The translations under genes and the position numbers were made by a program. The notes under the pieces were generated by a model. That model was not told the DNA's origin, searched no databases, and worked only from the letters and a program-made list of their open reading frames with translations. A stretch of 64,000 nucleotides of DNA, from NCBI RefSeq assembly GCF_001999965.1, contig NZ_CP019646.1, positions 744,001-808,000 on the forward strand. The letters are read 5' to 3'. This document shows positions 3,346 to 13,053 of the stretch, one piece after another (positions within the stretch are counted from its first letter, which is position 1; each line of letters begins with the position of its first letter). The DNA is from Limihaloglobus sulfuriphilus (GTDB lineage: Bacteria; Planctomycetota; Phycisphaerae; Sedimentisphaerales; Sedimentisphaeraceae).

Positions 3346-5523
3346 TTATTCCGAGGCTTCTTGTCCAAGCAGCCAGTGTTTGCCAATCTCTGCAACATCT
3401 TTGAAATCAACCCTGCCGTCGTGATTAACGTCCGGATTTCTGTCTTCCGGTATCTCATTATATTCTGGGTTGAGGATATGCCACAGCACACTTTTGCTCG
3501 CCTGACGGGTATTTCCGTAGGCTCCCATGTTGACGCGGTAACCGTTGGGGCGTGGTTCTCTTCTGAATGGATCGTCCGTGTCACCGGCATCTATGCTCGG
3601 GCTGTGAACATCGTCCTTTACCCAGTAACCGGGTTTTGTCATAGCATCGGGTTCAAGAACGGGGCTTTCAACATAACGTCCTGTGAGCGATTTTAGATGG
3701 TAATCAGGTTCGGGCAGCTCGGGATTTGCAAACAGCGGCTTTTCGTCTATGTTTCCGGCAGCGTCACAGATATTGATATTCTCTATATCTGCCGCACCAC
3801 CAATGTATTCGGTCAGGTCGTAATTAGCCGAGTCAGGGTCTTCGGGCAGATACATAAGGCTGTTGGGGTAGCCGCCCTGAACATTGGAGAAAGTTACCGG
3901 ACACTTGCACGGGGCTTTATAGATTATAATCTGCGTCGGTTTGTTGTGCCACACTATGCAGTTTCTGACGTAAATATCCGTGCCGTTTGCATGTATCCCC
4001 GAGCCCGGGTAGATCGGCATCGGGTAGAGCAGCTGATTGTGAGCAATGGTGCAGTTCTTCACCAGCAGATAGGTGTGGCAGCATTCCGGGCAGTCCGTAA
4101 CGGCGGGGTTCTCATATGAGTCCCTTTCTGTGTAGATGCCGGCGCCGCAGTTGGCTTGGTTGTTCCAGATCAGGGAATTTTCCACGGCCATTCTTGAGCC
4201 CGGGCCGCAGTATATTCCACCGCCGGCAATGCTGCCGCCGGCGCCGTTGCCGGATATATCGCATCTGTTTATCCTGGCTGAACTTCTGCGGGTGTATATG
4301 CCGCCGCCTCCGCTGTTGTAGTAGCCCATGTTGTATTTTATCTCACAGTTGAAAATGCTTGCATTGCTGTGGCGTATCATACCGATAGCGCCGCCGCGTC
4401 CGCCGGATTCACACGGCCCGTATCCGCCGGCACGGCAGCCTTGAATATTGCAGTTCTCTATCACCGGATTAGCTCCGACACAGCCGATGCCGCCGCCAAG
4501 TTCTGTGCCGCAATTCATTATTCTGCAATTTCTTATCGTCGGACTTGCAAACTCGCAGTTGATGCCTGCTCCTATTGGATGGCTCGGATCAAGATTCCAC
4601 CGCATGTTGTCGGCGGGGATTTCACTTCCGTGTATGATGCCGTTCTGGATTGTGAAACCTTCTATCACAGTGTCGCGGCGCTCTGCCTGATGCAGATAGA
4701 ACCCTCTGCTGTTGAAGGTTTCAGCGTTTATAGATATGCCGCCGCACTCGATAATGGTTCTCAGCGGCCCCTTAGCGCTTCGGACGGTGATTGCCTTTCC
4801 CAGAAGCTCGATATTTGTGTTACCCTCGCCTGTGTATGTGCCCGGCTCAACTTCGACAGTGTCACCGTTTGCAGATGCATTTACGGCGTCCTGAATAGTG
4901 GGGTATTCAGAAGGAACAAGCAGCACATCGGGCTCTGGTTCATAGGATTTGAGTATCACCTCCAGATTGTCAATCACAGCTTTTTGGCCGGAAAGTGAAA
5001 CGTAACATGTTCCCTGCTCGGATCCTAATGGTATTTCCTGGTGCCCGGATTTAAGAGGCACCGGCAGGCTCCAGTATTTGCCGTCCGGCGATATTGAGTA
5101 GCTAAAAGAACCGCCTTCCTCCGCGGAGATAATCTCCGTCTCTCTGGCAAGCTTCAGGTCAAATTCCAGTTTGCCTTTAAGCGGCATCATCTGCTGAGCT
5201 GATATGACCGGGAAGCAGTAGTTCAAATGGGCGGGTTTGCCTTTGAAACCGTTGAACAAAAGACCCGGCGGCCCGGAAGGCGGTATTCCGTATCTGCTCG
5301 AATACACGAGGTAAGGCTCTGCCGGCGGAAATGCGTTCTCCGGCCAGAATACTGAATGGTCGTAACTGTCGGTTCTGGCCTTGTGTGTGCTGAAATCATC
5401 ATCGTATGTGTAAATCCAGAGGTCTTTGTATTCAGCATTCGCGTCAAGACAAAAACCGGCTTCTAAAATTGCCAAAATAAAAGCAAATAAAGCCGTTTTG
5501 GCGCAAATCTTTACGAATTTCAT
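3346..5523 (-). CDS. Secreted right-handed beta-helix protein with C-terminal dockerin-like repeat
   Basis: 725 residues from the ATG at 5523, which has a strong AGGAGGAG ribosome-binding site; the frame stays open 10 codons further upstream but without a site. A signal peptide (FAFILAILEAGFCLDANA) leads into a roughly 180-residue N-terminal domain. A parallel beta-helix of repeated strands rich in GGG, NCxI and N-x-I steps (about residues 210-530) follows; it starts with the VPSEYPTIQDAVNAS motif common to pectate-lyase-like repeat proteins. The C-terminus carries one EF-hand dockerin-like repeat (DVNHDGRVDFKDVAEIGKHW), probably a calcium-binding anchoring or sorting module. Probable polysaccharide lyase or adhesion role; no catalytic residues can be assigned. 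Confidence 0.82.
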   Translation of the reverse strand: MKFVKICAKTALFAFILAILEAGFCLDANAEYKDLWIYTYDDDFSTHKARTDSYDHSVFWPENAFPPAEPYLVYSSRYGIPPSGPPGLLFNGFKGKPAHLNYCFPVISAQQMMPLKGKLEFDLKLARETEIISAEEGGSFSYSISPDGKYWSLPVPLKSGHQEIPLGSEQGTCYVSLSGQKAVIDNLEVILKSYEPEPDVLLVPSEYPTIQDAVNASANGDTVEVEPGTYTGEGNTNIELLGKAITVRSAKGPLRTIIECGGISINAETFNSRGFYLHQAERRDTVIEGFTIQNGIIHGSEIPADNMRWNLDPSHPIGAGINCEFASPTIRNCRIMNCGTELGGGIGCVGANPVIENCNIQGCRAGGYGPCESGGRGGAIGMIRHSNASIFNCEIKYNMGYYNSGGGGIYTRRSSARINRCDISGNGAGGSIAGGGIYCGPGSRMAVENSLIWNNQANCGAGIYTERDSYENPAVTDCPECCHTYLLVKNCTIAHNQLLYPMPIYPGSGIHANGTDIYVRNCIVWHNKPTQIIIYKAPCKCPVTFSNVQGGYPNSLMYLPEDPDSANYDLTEYIGGAADIENINICDAAGNIDEKPLFANPELPEPDYHLKSLTGRYVESPVLEPDAMTKPGYWVKDDVHSPSIDAGDTDDPFRREPRPNGYRVNMGAYGNTRQASKSVLWHILNPEYNEIPEDRNPDVNHDGRVDFKDVAEIGKHWLLGQEASE

Positions 5524-5728
5524 GGTTATATCTCCTCCTGAATTAAATAACACGAAATGATTGTGCTTATTAAAATATAATAGAGCACTTTTAAAAGTAA
5601 CCTATAATATATTATACGACCTGAGAACAGCAGTATCAAATTATTTTATGATAAATATTTGACAGCGGCTGTAAGCTCACTTAAGACTCGATTTTAACTG
5701 CTGATATTTTGTGAGGTTAACTCGAGAA

Positions 5729-5769
5729 TTCACCGAAGAAAATATATTATTCTCTTCATTTCCGGTGAA
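5729..5769. terminator. Weak stem-loop after the truncated phosphatase copy
   Basis: TTCACCG at 5729-5735 pairs with CGGTGAA at 5763-5769, enclosing an AT-rich loop of 27 bases. It lies directly beyond the stop codon of the truncated copy (minus strand). No clear T-run follows, so the terminator role is weak. Confidence 0.3.
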
Positions 5770-5775
5770 AGAACG

Positions 5776-6294
5776 ATCATTTGTTATTCAACCGGATTTG
5801 AGCCGTCACAGGGTAATGGTCTGAAGGGTAGCGGCCGTCTTTGTTGGTGTGGAGTATATCTGCTGATTTGGTTTGAGTTTGCGGTGAGACAAAGATGTAG
5901 TCTATTTTGTCTCCATCGATTTTTCCAGTGAATCCGCCGAAAGTGCCGACAATTTCTTCCTCCGGGTGGATTTGCCTGAATGTGTCTGCCATTGGCAGCG
6001 GATTAGAACGGCCGTCTATCTGCGCTGAGCCTTTAAGGTACTGAATCGCCAAATTGTTTTCGCCGGCATTGAAATCGCCCATCAGTATAAACATATCTTG
6101 GGGGTGCTGCCGTGAGGCGATCTTTTCTGTCACCTGGAGCACGCTTTTCTCACGGGAAAGCTGGCCTACGTGGTCGAGGTGCAGGTTATACACGTAGAAT
6201 CCTCTGCCGCGGCGGTCAAGCAGCCGCACCCAGGTACATATCCTTGAACAGGCATTACCCCATGTAATAGAGCCGGGCACAGATGGCGTGTCAG
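5776..6294 (-). pseudogene. Truncated duplicate of the endonuclease/exonuclease/phosphatase gene (3' 519 bp only)
   Basis: This stretch repeats 6942-7460 almost perfectly; the one difference I saw is a silent G/A at 5783/6949. It covers the last roughly 172 codons, including its own stop codon (5777-5779), and ends abruptly at 6294, where the similarity to the intact gene is lost. The frame could only start at an internal Met (6280), has no ribosome-binding site and lacks the signal peptide and the N-terminal half of the catalytic fold. It is therefore a gene fragment from a recent duplication rather than an independent gene. Confidence 0.85.
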
Positions 6295-6464
6295 GAATGA
6301 GAGAAATAAAGGACCGCGGGACCTTTTATTTAAATACGTATAATACGGGAAAACGAAACGGGGTGAAGTCTCTTTTTAATAAACCTTCAACATAAGCCCT
6401 TTGGCATAATTTGTTTATGTTTCACCGTCATCTGAATTTTGATTTTATTATCTGAGAAAACATC

Positions 6465-6492
6465 TTGCGGATTGCTGTAAACCTGCTATAAT
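6465..6492 (+). promoter_or_regulatory. Probable sigma70-type promoter of the antitoxin-like gene
   Basis: TTGCGG at 6465-6470 and TATAAT at 6487-6492 with 16-bp spacing. Transcription would start near 6499, leaving a leader of about 175 nt before the ATG at 6675. The rest of the 6295-6674 gap contains the first 32-bp repeat and a boxA-like sequence; no further gene is visible. Confidence 0.5.
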
Positions 6493-6511
6493 AATAATGA
6501 TAGATAATAAA

Positions 6512-6522
6512 GCTCTTTGACA
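6512..6522 (+). promoter_or_regulatory. boxA-like antitermination sequence in the leader
   Basis: GCTCTTTGACA lies about 13 nt downstream of the predicted transcription start. It fits the rRNA-leader boxA pattern GCTCTTTRACA bound by NusB/NusE. Its function in front of a small protein gene is unproven. Confidence 0.35.
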
Positions 6523-6674
6523 TACTCATATATACGCAGACTCACAGGTACTTGCGAAGCATGAGCACAGGGTCATACTTACCGGAACAATAACTACACT
6601 GAGACCGTACGCATTATAAGTGCCAGGAAAGCCACAAAAAGAGAAAAAGATACATATTTAAGCAGGCTGTCAAA

Positions 6675-6884
6675 ATGAAAAAAGAATACGATTTCACCAA
6701 TGCAGAACAAGGTAAATTTTACACGCCGATCGAGGAACTGGATATCCCTATATATCTTGACAGGGATAACAGAGAATTTTTACTCAAGCATATTCGGGAT
6801 AAATCAGAAAACCTGTCATTGAACCAGATAGTAAACTCGCTTATCAAACAGGACATTGAAATTTCCAGAAAACTGACTTTTTAG
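6675..6884 (+). CDS. CopG/BrnA-like small protein (orphan antitoxin candidate)
   Basis: 69 residues beginning MKKEYDFTNAEQGKFYTP, a start typical of a widespread family of small bacterial proteins often labelled as CopG- or BrnA-type antitoxins. After IPIYLDRDNREFLLKHI comes NLSLNQIVNSLIKQDIEI, which fits the ribbon-helix-helix pattern: a strand, then two helices. No toxin-like partner (RelE, BrnT, HicA) is encoded within 1 kb on either side. The gene has its own promoter and leader and sits between two nested sets of direct repeats. It could be a solitary transcriptional regulator or a stabilising cassette. Confidence 0.65.
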   Translation: MKKEYDFTNAEQGKFYTPIEELDIPIYLDRDNREFLLKHIRDKSENLSLNQIVNSLIKQDIEISRKLTF

Positions 6885-6942
6885 GAGAACGTAAGGGGAG
6901 AAGTCTCTTTTTAACATCGCTGCATTTTCAGCAGAATTTCCA

Positions 6943-7863
6943 TCATTTATTATTCAACCGGATTTGAGCCGTCACAGGGTAATGGTCTGAAGGGTAGCGG
7001 CCGTCTTTGTTGGTGTGGAGTATATCTGCTGATTTGGTTTGAGTTTGCGGTGAGACAAAGATGTAGTCTATTTTGTCTCCATCGATTTTTCCAGTGAATC
7101 CGCCGAAAGTGCCGACAATTTCTTCCTCCGGGTGGATTTGCCTGAATGTGTCTGCCATTGGCAGCGGATTAGAACGGCCGTCTATCTGCGCTGAGCCTTT
7201 AAGGTACTGAATCGCCAAATTGTTTTCGCCGGCATTGAAATCGCCCATCAGTATAAACATATCTTGGGGGTGCTGCCGTGAGGCGATCTTTTCTGTCACC
7301 TGGAGCACGCTTTTCTCACGGGAAAGCTGGCCTACGTGGTCGAGGTGCAGGTTATACACGTAGAATCCTCTGCCGCGGCGGTCAAGCAGCCGCACCCAGG
7401 TACATATCCTTGAACAGGCATTACCCCATGTAATAGAGCCGGGCACAGATGGCGTGTCAGAGAGCCAGAATGTGCCGGACTCTGCTTTCGTGAATATGTC
7501 TCTGCGGTACAAAACAGGGCAGAACTCACCTGCCTTCTTACCATCATTTCTACCGACACCTACGAAAGCATAATCAGGGTTGGCGGCAATAATAGTATCT
7601 ATCTGATAATTTAGAGCTTCCTGCAGTCCGGCAATGTCCGGCTTTTGTTCACCTATAAAATCACAAACCATATCTTTGCGGTTTGGCCAGCTGTTTTCGC
7701 CGTCGTCCGCGTCGCCGTAGCGGATATTGAAGCTCATTACATTGAGAGTTTTCTTGTGGTTATCCGTAGAGGTTTGGCTGTTTGTTTCGTACCGGCAGGA
7801 AACAAGGCCTAAGGTAAGCATGAAAAGGCACAGACTTGAAATAATGAATCGTGAATTCTGCAT
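6943..7863 (-). CDS. Lipoprotein of the endonuclease/exonuclease/phosphatase family
   Basis: 306 residues from the ATG at 7863, chosen because AAGGAAC precedes it at 7 bases and because it begins a lipoprotein signal (ISSLCLFMLTLGLVSC, lipobox LVSC with Cys near residue 23). The frame is open 73 codons further upstream, but that stretch reads like non-coding sequence. Family motifs are all present: LNVMSFNIRYGD (metal site), KPDIAGLQEA, YNLHLDH, ILMGDFNAG and YPSDHYPV (catalytic His). The family cleaves phosphoester bonds in nucleic acids, sugar phosphates or lipids; the SFNIRYG type is common in Bacteroidetes and planctomycete lipoproteins. Its last 519 bp are duplicated at 5776-6294. Confidence 0.87.
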   Translation of the reverse strand: MQNSRFIISSLCLFMLTLGLVSCRYETNSQTSTDNHKKTLNVMSFNIRYGDADDGENSWPNRKDMVCDFIGEQKPDIAGLQEALNYQIDTIIAANPDYAFVGVGRNDGKKAGEFCPVLYRRDIFTKAESGTFWLSDTPSVPGSITWGNACSRICTWVRLLDRRGRGFYVYNLHLDHVGQLSREKSVLQVTEKIASRQHPQDMFILMGDFNAGENNLAIQYLKGSAQIDGRSNPLPMADTFRQIHPEEEIVGTFGGFTGKIDGDKIDYIFVSPQTQTKSADILHTNKDGRYPSDHYPVTAQIRLNNK

Positions 7864-8383
7864 TTTATTAGTTCCTTGCATTTCTAATAATAAAAGTTTC
7901 ACTATTAAATTAACATCTCGGGACTGAATGTCAAGCGTTGAAGTTGAGTGCTTACGCCAAGACCGTAGAGTAAATTCACGAATTTGCTCCAAACGAAGTG
8001 TAACAACACAATACCGTATAAACGTTTTTTTGCTGTGAGGTGTATAAAATTCCTGCCGGTTATCAGGCGGCTTATCCGTCACAAGGCTGCCGTGATAACC
8101 ACTCGTTTACACTCGCGGCTCTGATGTTGTAAATGCCGACTGTGTGTCATTTTTGATACCCAGCGGCGGTTTTGAGAAAATTGTAAAACTTAACGGATTG
8201 TCTCCATTTGCCGGCTGCATGTCAAGCAGGCAAAACGAATCAGGTTGGCAAATTTAAATAATTGTTCAGATTTAATTCTTGTAAAGAGTGCTTTGTATTT
8301 GTTACAATCCGTGTGTGAATGGTTTTTAATATATTGTGTTCTCGAAATGCGGCTTCGCCGAAGCAGATATGAAAGGAATCTCA
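7864..8383. other. 520-bp intergenic region between divergent genes
   Basis: It lies between the phosphatase gene (leftward) and the GH28 gene (rightward). I see an imperfect inverted repeat at 8058-8100 (GGTTATCA ... TGATAACC with a further GC-rich inner part) that is not followed by a T-run. A plausible GH28 promoter is TTGTAA at 8279-8284 and TACAAT at 8303-8308 with an 18-bp spacer. Nothing else is supported. Confidence 0.4.
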
Positions 8384-10851: not shown

Positions 10852-12258
10852 TTATTCGTACAAACTAATCACTTGGACCGCCTTTTCCCGTGTGCTGTAA
10901 TCGGGGTATTGTGTTTCACTGGCAATACCTTTCTCTGCCAGCAGACGGGCGACGATCAGCCGGCTTTGCTGCGCCTGGTTGGCTGAATCGCCAAGAACAC
11001 GCATACATTCCTGCGGCGAGTGAAAGCCCATACCGTTGCTTGCAGAGATGTAGTCCCAGCGGTACTGGGCGTGGCGGATGAGTTTCCTTGCAGGGGCAAG
11101 TTTTTCATCGGTAACTCCGGCGTCAATGGCGGCCCTTACGTCAAAATGAGCCTTTACAATGGCATCTTCCGCGTCCAGCATGGCAGTCTGTACTTTGTCC
11201 TGTATGCCTTCCACGCGGTCCCTGATCTGCTCCTCACTCCAGCGGTGGCACACTGCGCAGCTGTTTGCAATGTTGAGCAGGGGGCTTTGGATGTGATGGT
11301 CGGTCAGTTTCATTCCTCCCTGGCTGTGGTAGGGCATATGGCAGTCAGCACATGAGACACCGATATAGGAATGGACGCCGGTCATATACAGCTCATAATC
11401 CGGGTGCTGGGCCTTTATGATGTTCGTCTTTGATATCGGGTGGACATAATCAGTAAATTCCAGCTCATCATAATATTCGATGACCTCTTCAACTTTTGTG
11501 CCTTTTTTCCATGGGAAAGTGAGATATTCTTTCGGCTCCCGGCTGAAATAGTATTCGACATGGCATTGAGCACATACAAGAGACCGCATTTCCTGATGAG
11601 ATGCCTCGTTTATATCTTTGTTCATAGATTCAAAGCCCTCTTGCAGCGCCGGCCGGGTAATACGCAGGCTCATGGTCTTGGGGTCGTGGCAATCCTGGCA
11701 GCCTATAGGAAACTGTACCTGTTCTTTAATGTCATGGAAATTCGCCGCGTAGAATTGGGCTACCCCCATCTTGTCCATAAGCCGCGGCACATCTGTGCTT
11801 TTGCAGGTCAGGCATGTGCCGGGGTTGTAGGGGGTTTTGATACGCTCTGTCTGTTTAACGTCGGTAACGGCGTGATAGTGGCCCCTTGCCTGGAGGTATT
11901 CCTTGCTGAAACCGTAACCGGCAAACAGAATAACCTGCATTGGGTCTTCTTCGAGGTAATCCCTGGGGTAGGCTCCGCCGTATTTTGTTTTTGTATCGTC
12001 AATCCTCGTCTTGAGATACGTGTCGTACTCATTGGGATAGTTCTGCCCCCATACAGCATTGTCAGGCTGCCATTCATCTATCGGTTTAAGAACGAGGCCG
12101 GGCCGCTGGGCTTCCCATCGCCGTTCCATGATGCTTACTGCAAGCAGTCCCAGAAGAAGAACCACCGCCGCACACATTGCCAGTATAACAAGGCCTGCCC
12201 ATAAGGGGAGTTTAAGCTGTGGGTTTGTTTCTTTTTTGCCGTTTTCGTTATTTGTCAT
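10852..12258 (-). CDS. nrfA: Ammonia-forming cytochrome c nitrite reductase, catalytic subunit
   Basis: 468 residues starting at ATG with AAGGAG 6 bases upstream. An N-terminal membrane segment (about 19-44) precedes the periplasmic part. Five haem-binding motifs are visible: the diagnostic active-site CLTCK (149-153) with Lys as axial ligand, then CQDCH (187-191), CAQCH (229-233), CADCH (303-307) and CAVCH (334-338). HPDYELYMTGVH supplies conserved His residues. NrfA reduces nitrite to ammonium with six electrons, supporting dissimilatory nitrate/nitrite reduction or nitrite detoxification. Its start overlaps the nrfH end by 11 bp, so the two are translated together. Confidence 0.96.
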   Translation of the reverse strand: MTNNENGKKETNPQLKLPLWAGLVILAMCAAVVLLLGLLAVSIMERRWEAQRPGLVLKPIDEWQPDNAVWGQNYPNEYDTYLKTRIDDTKTKYGGAYPRDYLEEDPMQVILFAGYGFSKEYLQARGHYHAVTDVKQTERIKTPYNPGTCLTCKSTDVPRLMDKMGVAQFYAANFHDIKEQVQFPIGCQDCHDPKTMSLRITRPALQEGFESMNKDINEASHQEMRSLVCAQCHVEYYFSREPKEYLTFPWKKGTKVEEVIEYYDELEFTDYVHPISKTNIIKAQHPDYELYMTGVHSYIGVSCADCHMPYHSQGGMKLTDHHIQSPLLNIANSCAVCHRWSEEQIRDRVEGIQDKVQTAMLDAEDAIVKAHFDVRAAIDAGVTDEKLAPARKLIRHAQYRWDYISASNGMGFHSPQECMRVLGDSANQAQQSRLIVARLLAEKGIASETQYPDYSTREKAVQVISLYE

Positions 12259-12850
12259 TTTTGTCTCCTTTTTTCATCCAATCAAGACCAGCTGCCGGCA
12301 GCTCGGGCCGCAATGGCCGCGGTGAGGCCGAAAGGCTCTTTGTGTTGCCGTGTATATTTGTATGGCATTGCCAGCAGGCCCTTTCGGTTGTGTCTGCCAG
12401 GCGGACCATTAGAAATTCATTATTGTGGCAGGTGAGGCAGTTTTCCTGAACTACGTGGCGGGCTGCGGATGAGAGCTCAAGTACCTGAGGTTCTGTGCCG
12501 GCGGTAAAAACGTAGGAATGTTTCATGCCGTCAAAAGCCTTGAAGGCGTATTTGGCAGCGATATTGCCGTGCGGGACATGGCAGTCGGTGCAAACTGCCG
12601 CGCGTCCGTGGCTGCCGCGTTTCCACGAAGCATAGGCGTCTGTCATAACATGGCAGTTTATGCAGGTCTCGGGTTCGTCTGAGAGGTAGGAAACCGCATT
12701 TGATATCCGCACAAGAAAAAGCACCATACCCAGTACTATTCCGGCAGATGCGAATAGGCCCAACTGCAGAATACGAGGTAGTGAAGTGTACAGCCTCAAA
12801 AGGCTGTGTAATATATTTGGAATAAATGATAAATCTAAATATGACTTCAT
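12248..12850 (-). CDS. nrfH: Cytochrome c nitrite reductase, small subunit (quinol dehydrogenase)
   Basis: 200 residues if started at the ATG at 12850; the frame stays open to 13018, but that extension has no signal or family similarity. One membrane anchor (about residues 28-48) and four haem motifs are present: CINCH (63-67) followed by V-M as in NapC/NrfH proteins, CTDCH (87-91), CLTCH (138-142) and CWQCH (159-163). NrfH takes electrons from menaquinol and passes them to NrfA. The gene lies immediately upstream of nrfA with overlapping ends. No strong ribosome-binding site was seen at 12850, so the exact start is uncertain. Confidence 0.92.
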   Translation of the reverse strand: MKSYLDLSFIPNILHSLLRLYTSLPRILQLGLFASAGIVLGMVLFLVRISNAVSYLSDEPETCINCHVMTDAYASWKRGSHGRAAVCTDCHVPHGNIAAKYAFKAFDGMKHSYVFTAGTEPQVLELSSAARHVVQENCLTCHNNEFLMVRLADTTERACWQCHTNIHGNTKSLSASPRPLRPELPAAGLDWMKKGDKNDK

Positions 12851-13053
12851 AAACGGATTATAGGAATTTTTGATGTTGATTACAAGTGTTTTTTGGTTTG
12901 CGTTTCGATAAGAAGGTTTGTTGTCTGAATTGCCGGGAACTGTCGTTGGAAAAATGTTTGCAATATGTTCAATGACAGTATGGTTTTGGGTAAATTCGAG
13001 CCGGAGTGAAGTGCTCATATAAAAGAAAAGCCCTGCTGTTTTTGTCCAATTCG

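Follow-up and report, generated by a model that had tools for sequence, protein, structure and literature searches.

Transposases of the RAYT and TIRYT groups are encoded by widespread genes, which are usually viewed as domesticated or as dispersers of only tiny repeats. One-ended HuH transposition, in which adjacent DNA is captured from one defined end, is a property of IS91/ISCR elements and Helitrons. The closest described relatives of the locus considered here are the TIRYT enzymes and their TIRtrons, in which a Y1 tyrosine transposase is associated with inverted terminal repeats (PMC3733652); this class corresponds to RAYT group 1, or TnpAY1 subclass 2.1 (PMC6006769). The REPIN/RAYT system of Pseudomonas fluorescens forms tandem clusters in which the element is duplicated together with its flanks, some of them beside the transposase gene (PMC3116915).

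The window, i.e., the whole stretch of 64,000 nucleotides of Limihaloglobus sulfuriphilus DNA that was analysed, contains a small gene bracketed by two direct repeats, the whole lying between two copies of a gene tail. The features of this region are listed below, R2 and R3 being models of the repeat family which are described further on.

5776..6294, minus strand: duplicated 3' fragment of an endonuclease/exonuclease/phosphatase gene (519 bp against 6942-7460, one mismatch; Exo_endo_phos found on the ORF)
6297..6334, plus strand: third, divergent terminal-repeat-like element, type c (R2, 11.5 bits; R3, 16.4 bits, E 0.37, weak)
6346..6383, plus strand: left terminal repeat, type b (R3, 43.7 bits, E 3.5e-7 in the window)
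6384..6512, plus strand: conserved stretch inside the type b element (74-82% identical copies at 3,363,428, 2,104,766, 2,105,368 and 3,515,891)
6513..6557, plus strand: RHS-repeat gene fragment of about 45 bp (88% identical over 49 bp to an RHS ORF, L058:3793-3841)
6568..6678, plus strand: 3' remainder of a brnT toxin gene, comprising 36 codons and a stop (BrnT_toxin, E 6.3e-5)
6675..6884, plus strand: antitoxin gene in the BrnA position, 69 aa, ORF open, ribbon-helix-helix-like; in many bacteria relatives lie directly downstream of brnT
6882..6918, plus strand: right terminal repeat, type b (R3, 27.1 bits, E 0.0016 in the window, E 0.09 genome-wide)
6919..6941, plus strand: short linker with a small hairpin (CTGC...GCAG), the predicted fold no better than shuffles
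6942..8082, minus strand: intact endonuclease/exonuclease/phosphatase-family gene (PF03372; ORF 6943-8082, Exo_endo_phos E 2.2e-16)

The direct repeats (6348-6379 and 6884-6914, 32 and 31 bp) are identical in 28 of 32 aligned columns, and their local alignment score of 42 compares with a best of 34 among 500 shuffles; both this pair and the flanking 519-bp duplication, as reported in the preliminary description, are real. The repeat pair had there been placed inside the 519-bp repeat, which requires correction, as the insert (6295-6941) sits between the two copies and not within either of them. The duplicated 519 bp represent the 3' end of the intact phosphatase-family gene, and the left copy adjoins a flank which is unlike that of the right copy and resembles the native downstream region of this gene. 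The insert has a G+C content of 36% as against 47% for the window, and a search of the other 160 genomes of the order, all from other genera, found it missing from all of them and yielded no empty allele. The right terminal repeat overlaps the stop codon of the antitoxin gene, whilst the type c element, which shares 95% identity over 37 bp with a sequence at 3,619,153, has its outer boundary at the junction with the left 519-bp copy; the repeat lying exactly at the window's own 519-bp junction is the weakest of the three found there (E 0.37). Most of the four outside copies of the conserved stretch of approximately 130 bp adjoin the same or a related repeat, and a sigma-70-like TTGCGG...TATAAT box within it, read by eye only, is a putative promoter. 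Predicted folds of the window repeats were no better than shuffles, giving no indication of a stable hairpin, and an Rfam search of 5500-7700 returned zero known RNA elements at E up to 1. Elsewhere in the window (10852-13018), neighbouring genes appear by eye to code for multihaem cytochromes similar to NrfA/NrfH, the nitrite reductase pair.

The idea that the repeat might be private to the window pair does not hold, as approximately 40 copies occur genome-wide as inverted pairs, direct pairs, singles and clusters. There are five Y1_Tnp genes in the genome, one of which (2,353,540; locus L068) is flanked by inverted AATTAAAGGGGTTGAGACTCTTTGTTTT-like ends with extra tandem copies on both sides; its protein carries the HuH (HWH; NHWH) and Y---NP (YIEANP) signatures, seen in an alignment with another Y1 protein from this genome. 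At this locus (L068:1200-2500) the Y1 gene is accompanied by tandem extra left ends and by a duplicated right end of 216 bp which takes in 3' sequence of the transposase gene. A first model, R1, was built from the ends of this gene and two close copies, with no type b sites; it matches about 33 sites, several of which are inverted pairs approximately 280-320 bp apart, resembling miniature elements. Neither R1 nor the second-step model R2, also built without type b sites, gave significant matches to the two window repeats; R2 does reach one type b site, at 363,336 (E 1.8e-5). The third model, R3, in which type b sites were included and the window sequence was left out, detects both window repeats (E 3.5e-7 and 0.0016 in a search of the window); across the genome it returns 44 sites with E values of 1 or less. 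As R1 failed on the window repeats, the link to the Y1 ends was made stepwise through R2 and R3, and it passes through intermediate copies, no Y1 gene in the genome having ends identical to type b.

The same format of ends is seen beyond this genome. In other genera of the order, inverted repeats border 11 of the 20 Y1 loci that were inspected, for the most part in this format (e.g., GGGAGAAACTAAAGGGGTCAGACCCCTTTTTT), and tandem end copies are present there too. At the position of the GGGGWSAS motif, to which the window repeats GGGGTGAA and GGGGAGAA match at seven of eight bases, other Y1 loci of the order carry GGGGTCAG or GGGGACAC. The end pattern was found in only three of 397 genomes of the class, and 14 times in that of L. 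sulfuriphilus; truncated copies often lie just outside intact ones. Judged from these sequence comparisons, the window repeats are most readily identified as terminal repeats belonging to a TIRYT-type family of Y1/HuH single-strand transposons (RAYT group 1, IS200/IS605 superfamily).

Several further arrangements were observed around these repeats. RHS-repeat genes or fragments adjoin terminal repeats at L058:3375-4823, L057:5060-6598, L063 and L267:7914-8450, and at four places the repeats face outward around 2.4-4.5 kb. In another genus of the order (locus L310), a 27-bp sequence similar to part of an RHS gene occurs in duplicate between two copies of a terminal repeat next to a Y1 gene, an arrangement which slightly resembles that of the window. 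A short palindromic repeat, CCAATGTCAACCGAGGACGGTTGACC, is frequent at 3,042,000-3,281,000, in places with a spacing of approximately 360-470 bp, and is also found within the repeat element at 389,399.

The insert carries a single open gene, described initially as an antitoxin-like gene without toxin and preceded by a leader. The preceding stretch does exist; most of it is a brnT toxin remnant of 36 codons rather than a leader, and the gene is thus not without trace of a toxin. This remnant covers profile positions 58-77 of 77, about 60 N-terminal codons having gone, and its TGA overlaps the ATG of the antitoxin gene, an overlap which recurs in relatives. The relatives, most of them 46-76% identical, come from Campylobacterota, Desulfobacterota, Gammaproteobacteria, Victivallales and others; in most of those inspected, the antitoxin gene lies directly 3' of brnT with the brnT stop overlapping its start, and the upstream gene of one was matched by BrnT_toxin at E 5e-27. 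The antitoxin gene is single-copy in the genome, and a genome-wide search found no BrnT elsewhere and no intact toxin gene beside the antitoxin. Pfam and PADLOC searches returned no family for the antitoxin itself and a PDB profile search gave only insignificant matches. A structure model shows an N-terminal arm followed by helices at 30-41 and 49-68, and, at the modest confidence of this model, the predicted fold is compatible with ribbon-helix-helix. The gene order, the 4-bp brnT-brnA overlap and the conserved BrnT C-terminus are those of the BrnT-BrnA type II module; unlike in that module, the window toxin is cut to 36 codons and the antitoxin alone is intact. As the module is truncated in its toxin, the open gene is an orphan BrnA-like antitoxin left from a broken brnT-brnA pair.

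Local direct repeats of at least 50 bp were counted at repeat loci and at control loci, and were present at 14 of 29 of the former vs 3 of 64 of the latter, loci which are not fully independent because several share one cluster and because multicopy elements raise the repeat count; one of the three controls adjoins the Y1 gene at 2,353,540. In 11 of 16 duplications from ten regions, the window's own being among the 11, a boundary falls at most 6 bp from the outer boundary of a terminal repeat, whereas 5,000 circular shifts averaged 0.31 such cases and never gave more than 4. Other examples, given by genome position, are the following:

3,801,682: perfect tandem of 2,412 bp, comprising an acetylesterase gene tail and whole umuD- and umuC-like genes
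1,601,705: duplication of 1,900 bp, comprising the 3' half of a sulfatase gene and a whole HAD hydrolase gene
389,061: tandem of 993 bp, comprising the 3' end of a mipA gene

In the first of these (locus L268; 3,801,682-3,806,508), the umuD-umuC-like pair, of the error-prone polymerase type, is doubled with a terminal repeat at the duplication junction; another umuC tail and a duplicated part of a DUF4139 gene lie nearby. Two further duplications lie directly beside the Y1 gene at 2,353,540. At all seven junctions inspected, a G immediately precedes the joined repeat (GAG, TTTG, TAG, TGG, ATG, GAG, CAG), although the exact cut and the rule of a preceding G are ambiguous by 1-4 bases because the elements begin with G. 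These precise duplication junctions at repeat ends suggest that the transposase copies adjoining DNA.

The order of the window and its orphan antitoxin would probably be explained by the terminal repeats of this Y1 family together with one-ended transposition acting in trans. This reading builds on the repeat family and its tie to a Y1 gene, on what is left of brnT and on the duplication junctions at repeat boundaries, and from these we infer a one-ended cut, a circle, a donor allele and an order of events. The window repeats bracket element-internal sequence, a fragment of an RHS gene and the truncated brnT-brnA module. Most likely, a transposase provided in trans would cleave a terminal repeat at its outer boundary, and the cut repeat would be joined 3' of a site ending in G (p) in a neighbouring gene, which amounts to one-ended transposition. 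Such a joining would yield a circle running from the repeat to p and carrying the element with host DNA, in the window the 519-bp gene tail. Re-entry of the circle into the parental locus by homologous recombination may give the tandem duplications seen elsewhere, whilst entry into an allele with the phosphatase gene and without the insert would produce exactly the window order, predicted as the native flank followed by the gene tail up to p, then the repeat, the insert and the whole gene.

In the alternative which fares best, the repeats would be fragile sites only, forming nicks or hairpins at which slippage during replication or microhomology-mediated repair produces the duplications, with no one-ended transposition. 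Microhomology of 0-3 bases at the junctions and the head-to-tail order of the tandem units both fit such a process. Fragile sites should scatter breakpoints, yet most junctions share one element boundary to within a few bases, a one-sided precision which slippage or repair does not predict; we therefore regard this alternative as unlikely. It is a good deal less probable that the terminal repeats are bystanders and that a toxin-antitoxin module created a long target duplication on insertion, in the way described for restriction-modification genes. Insertions with long target duplications have already been described in the literature, and the brnTA fragment does lie between direct 519-bp copies. 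The toxin is nevertheless truncated, the module is joined on its left to element and RHS fragments and on its right to a terminal repeat, and the same duplication architecture is present at repeat loci without any toxin-antitoxin module.

The least probable reading, to which we give very little credence, is a site-specific cassette system with the 31/32-bp repeat as recombination site: a single open gene does lie between two direct repeats, and two other same-orientation pairs, 1.9 and 2.4 kb apart, do bound whole-gene units (HAD hydrolase; umuD-umuC), but between most of the remaining direct pairs there is nothing more than some 70-600 bp of gene fragments or non-coding sequence, inverted copies of the repeat flank a Y1 transposase gene, and no attC-type site (RYYYAAC ... 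GTTRRRY), which also speaks against an integron gene cassette, was found in 6200-7000 on either strand. The genome search for the repeat around other genes, proposed in the preliminary description, was in part borne out by such units; they are local tandem duplications of resident genes and gene tails rather than inserted foreign cassettes, and the brnTA fragment is the only cargo for which no source lies nearby. Its suggestion of a mobile or recombining single-gene cassette was right in that the boundaries mark a recombining unit, but the local duplications, the mostly geneless pairs, the Y1 terminal repeats, the missing attC site and the broken brnTA module leave a site-specific cassette system unsupported.

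Returning to one-ended transposition from Y1 terminal repeats, a more general proposal can be put forward tentatively and is perhaps rather to be doubted than believed: that Y1 transposases of the TIRYT type work in a one-ended manner, joining a terminal repeat to sites ending in G in nearby genes, and so duplicate and move whole genes and gene fragments, the orphan antitoxin and gene tail of the window having been moved thus, as a bacterial Y1 counterpart of Helitron/ISCR capture. If this is true, RAYT/TIRYT ends would be a source of bacterial gene duplications, partial duplications and fusions, and their junctions could account for RHS fragments as well as orphan antitoxins. Thousands of genomes can be searched for the signature, in which a repeat is joined by its outer boundary to a preceding G.

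The components themselves are known, as dispersed TIRYT ends (PMC3733652) and flank-duplicating REPIN arrays beside RAYT genes (PMC3116915) have both been reported. Two features appear to be new, namely that the repeats form precise, one-sided junctions with host genes and gene fragments in units reaching 2.4 kb and that the cargo includes the remnant of a toxin-antitoxin module, neither being described in the portions of the open-access literature covered by our search. As in the TIRYT/TIRtron system, there is a PF01797 transposase with HuH and Y---NP signatures, and the inverted GGGG-type ends that flank it are also dispersed as singles, dimers and clusters. Unlike in that system, the window copies are direct, enclose a gene, differ by one mismatch from GGGGWSAS and have no transposase gene nearby; the sections of the TIRYT/TIRtron literature covered contain no mention of junction-precise duplication of host genes. 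The REPIN/RAYT clusters share the tandem repetition of an element including flanking sequence; here, unlike there, the units contain whole and partial host genes, and the junction lies at the outer boundary of the repeat. Classical REP/RAYT elements carry a GTAG or GTGG tag at the foot of the hairpin, and the aligned copies have no conserved equivalent of it. With IS91/ISCR elements and Helitrons, HuH chemistry and the capture of adjacent DNA from one end are held in common, a resemblance of outcome only, as the enzyme here is not a rolling-circle Rep-like transposase and is instead a Y1, IS200-like one.
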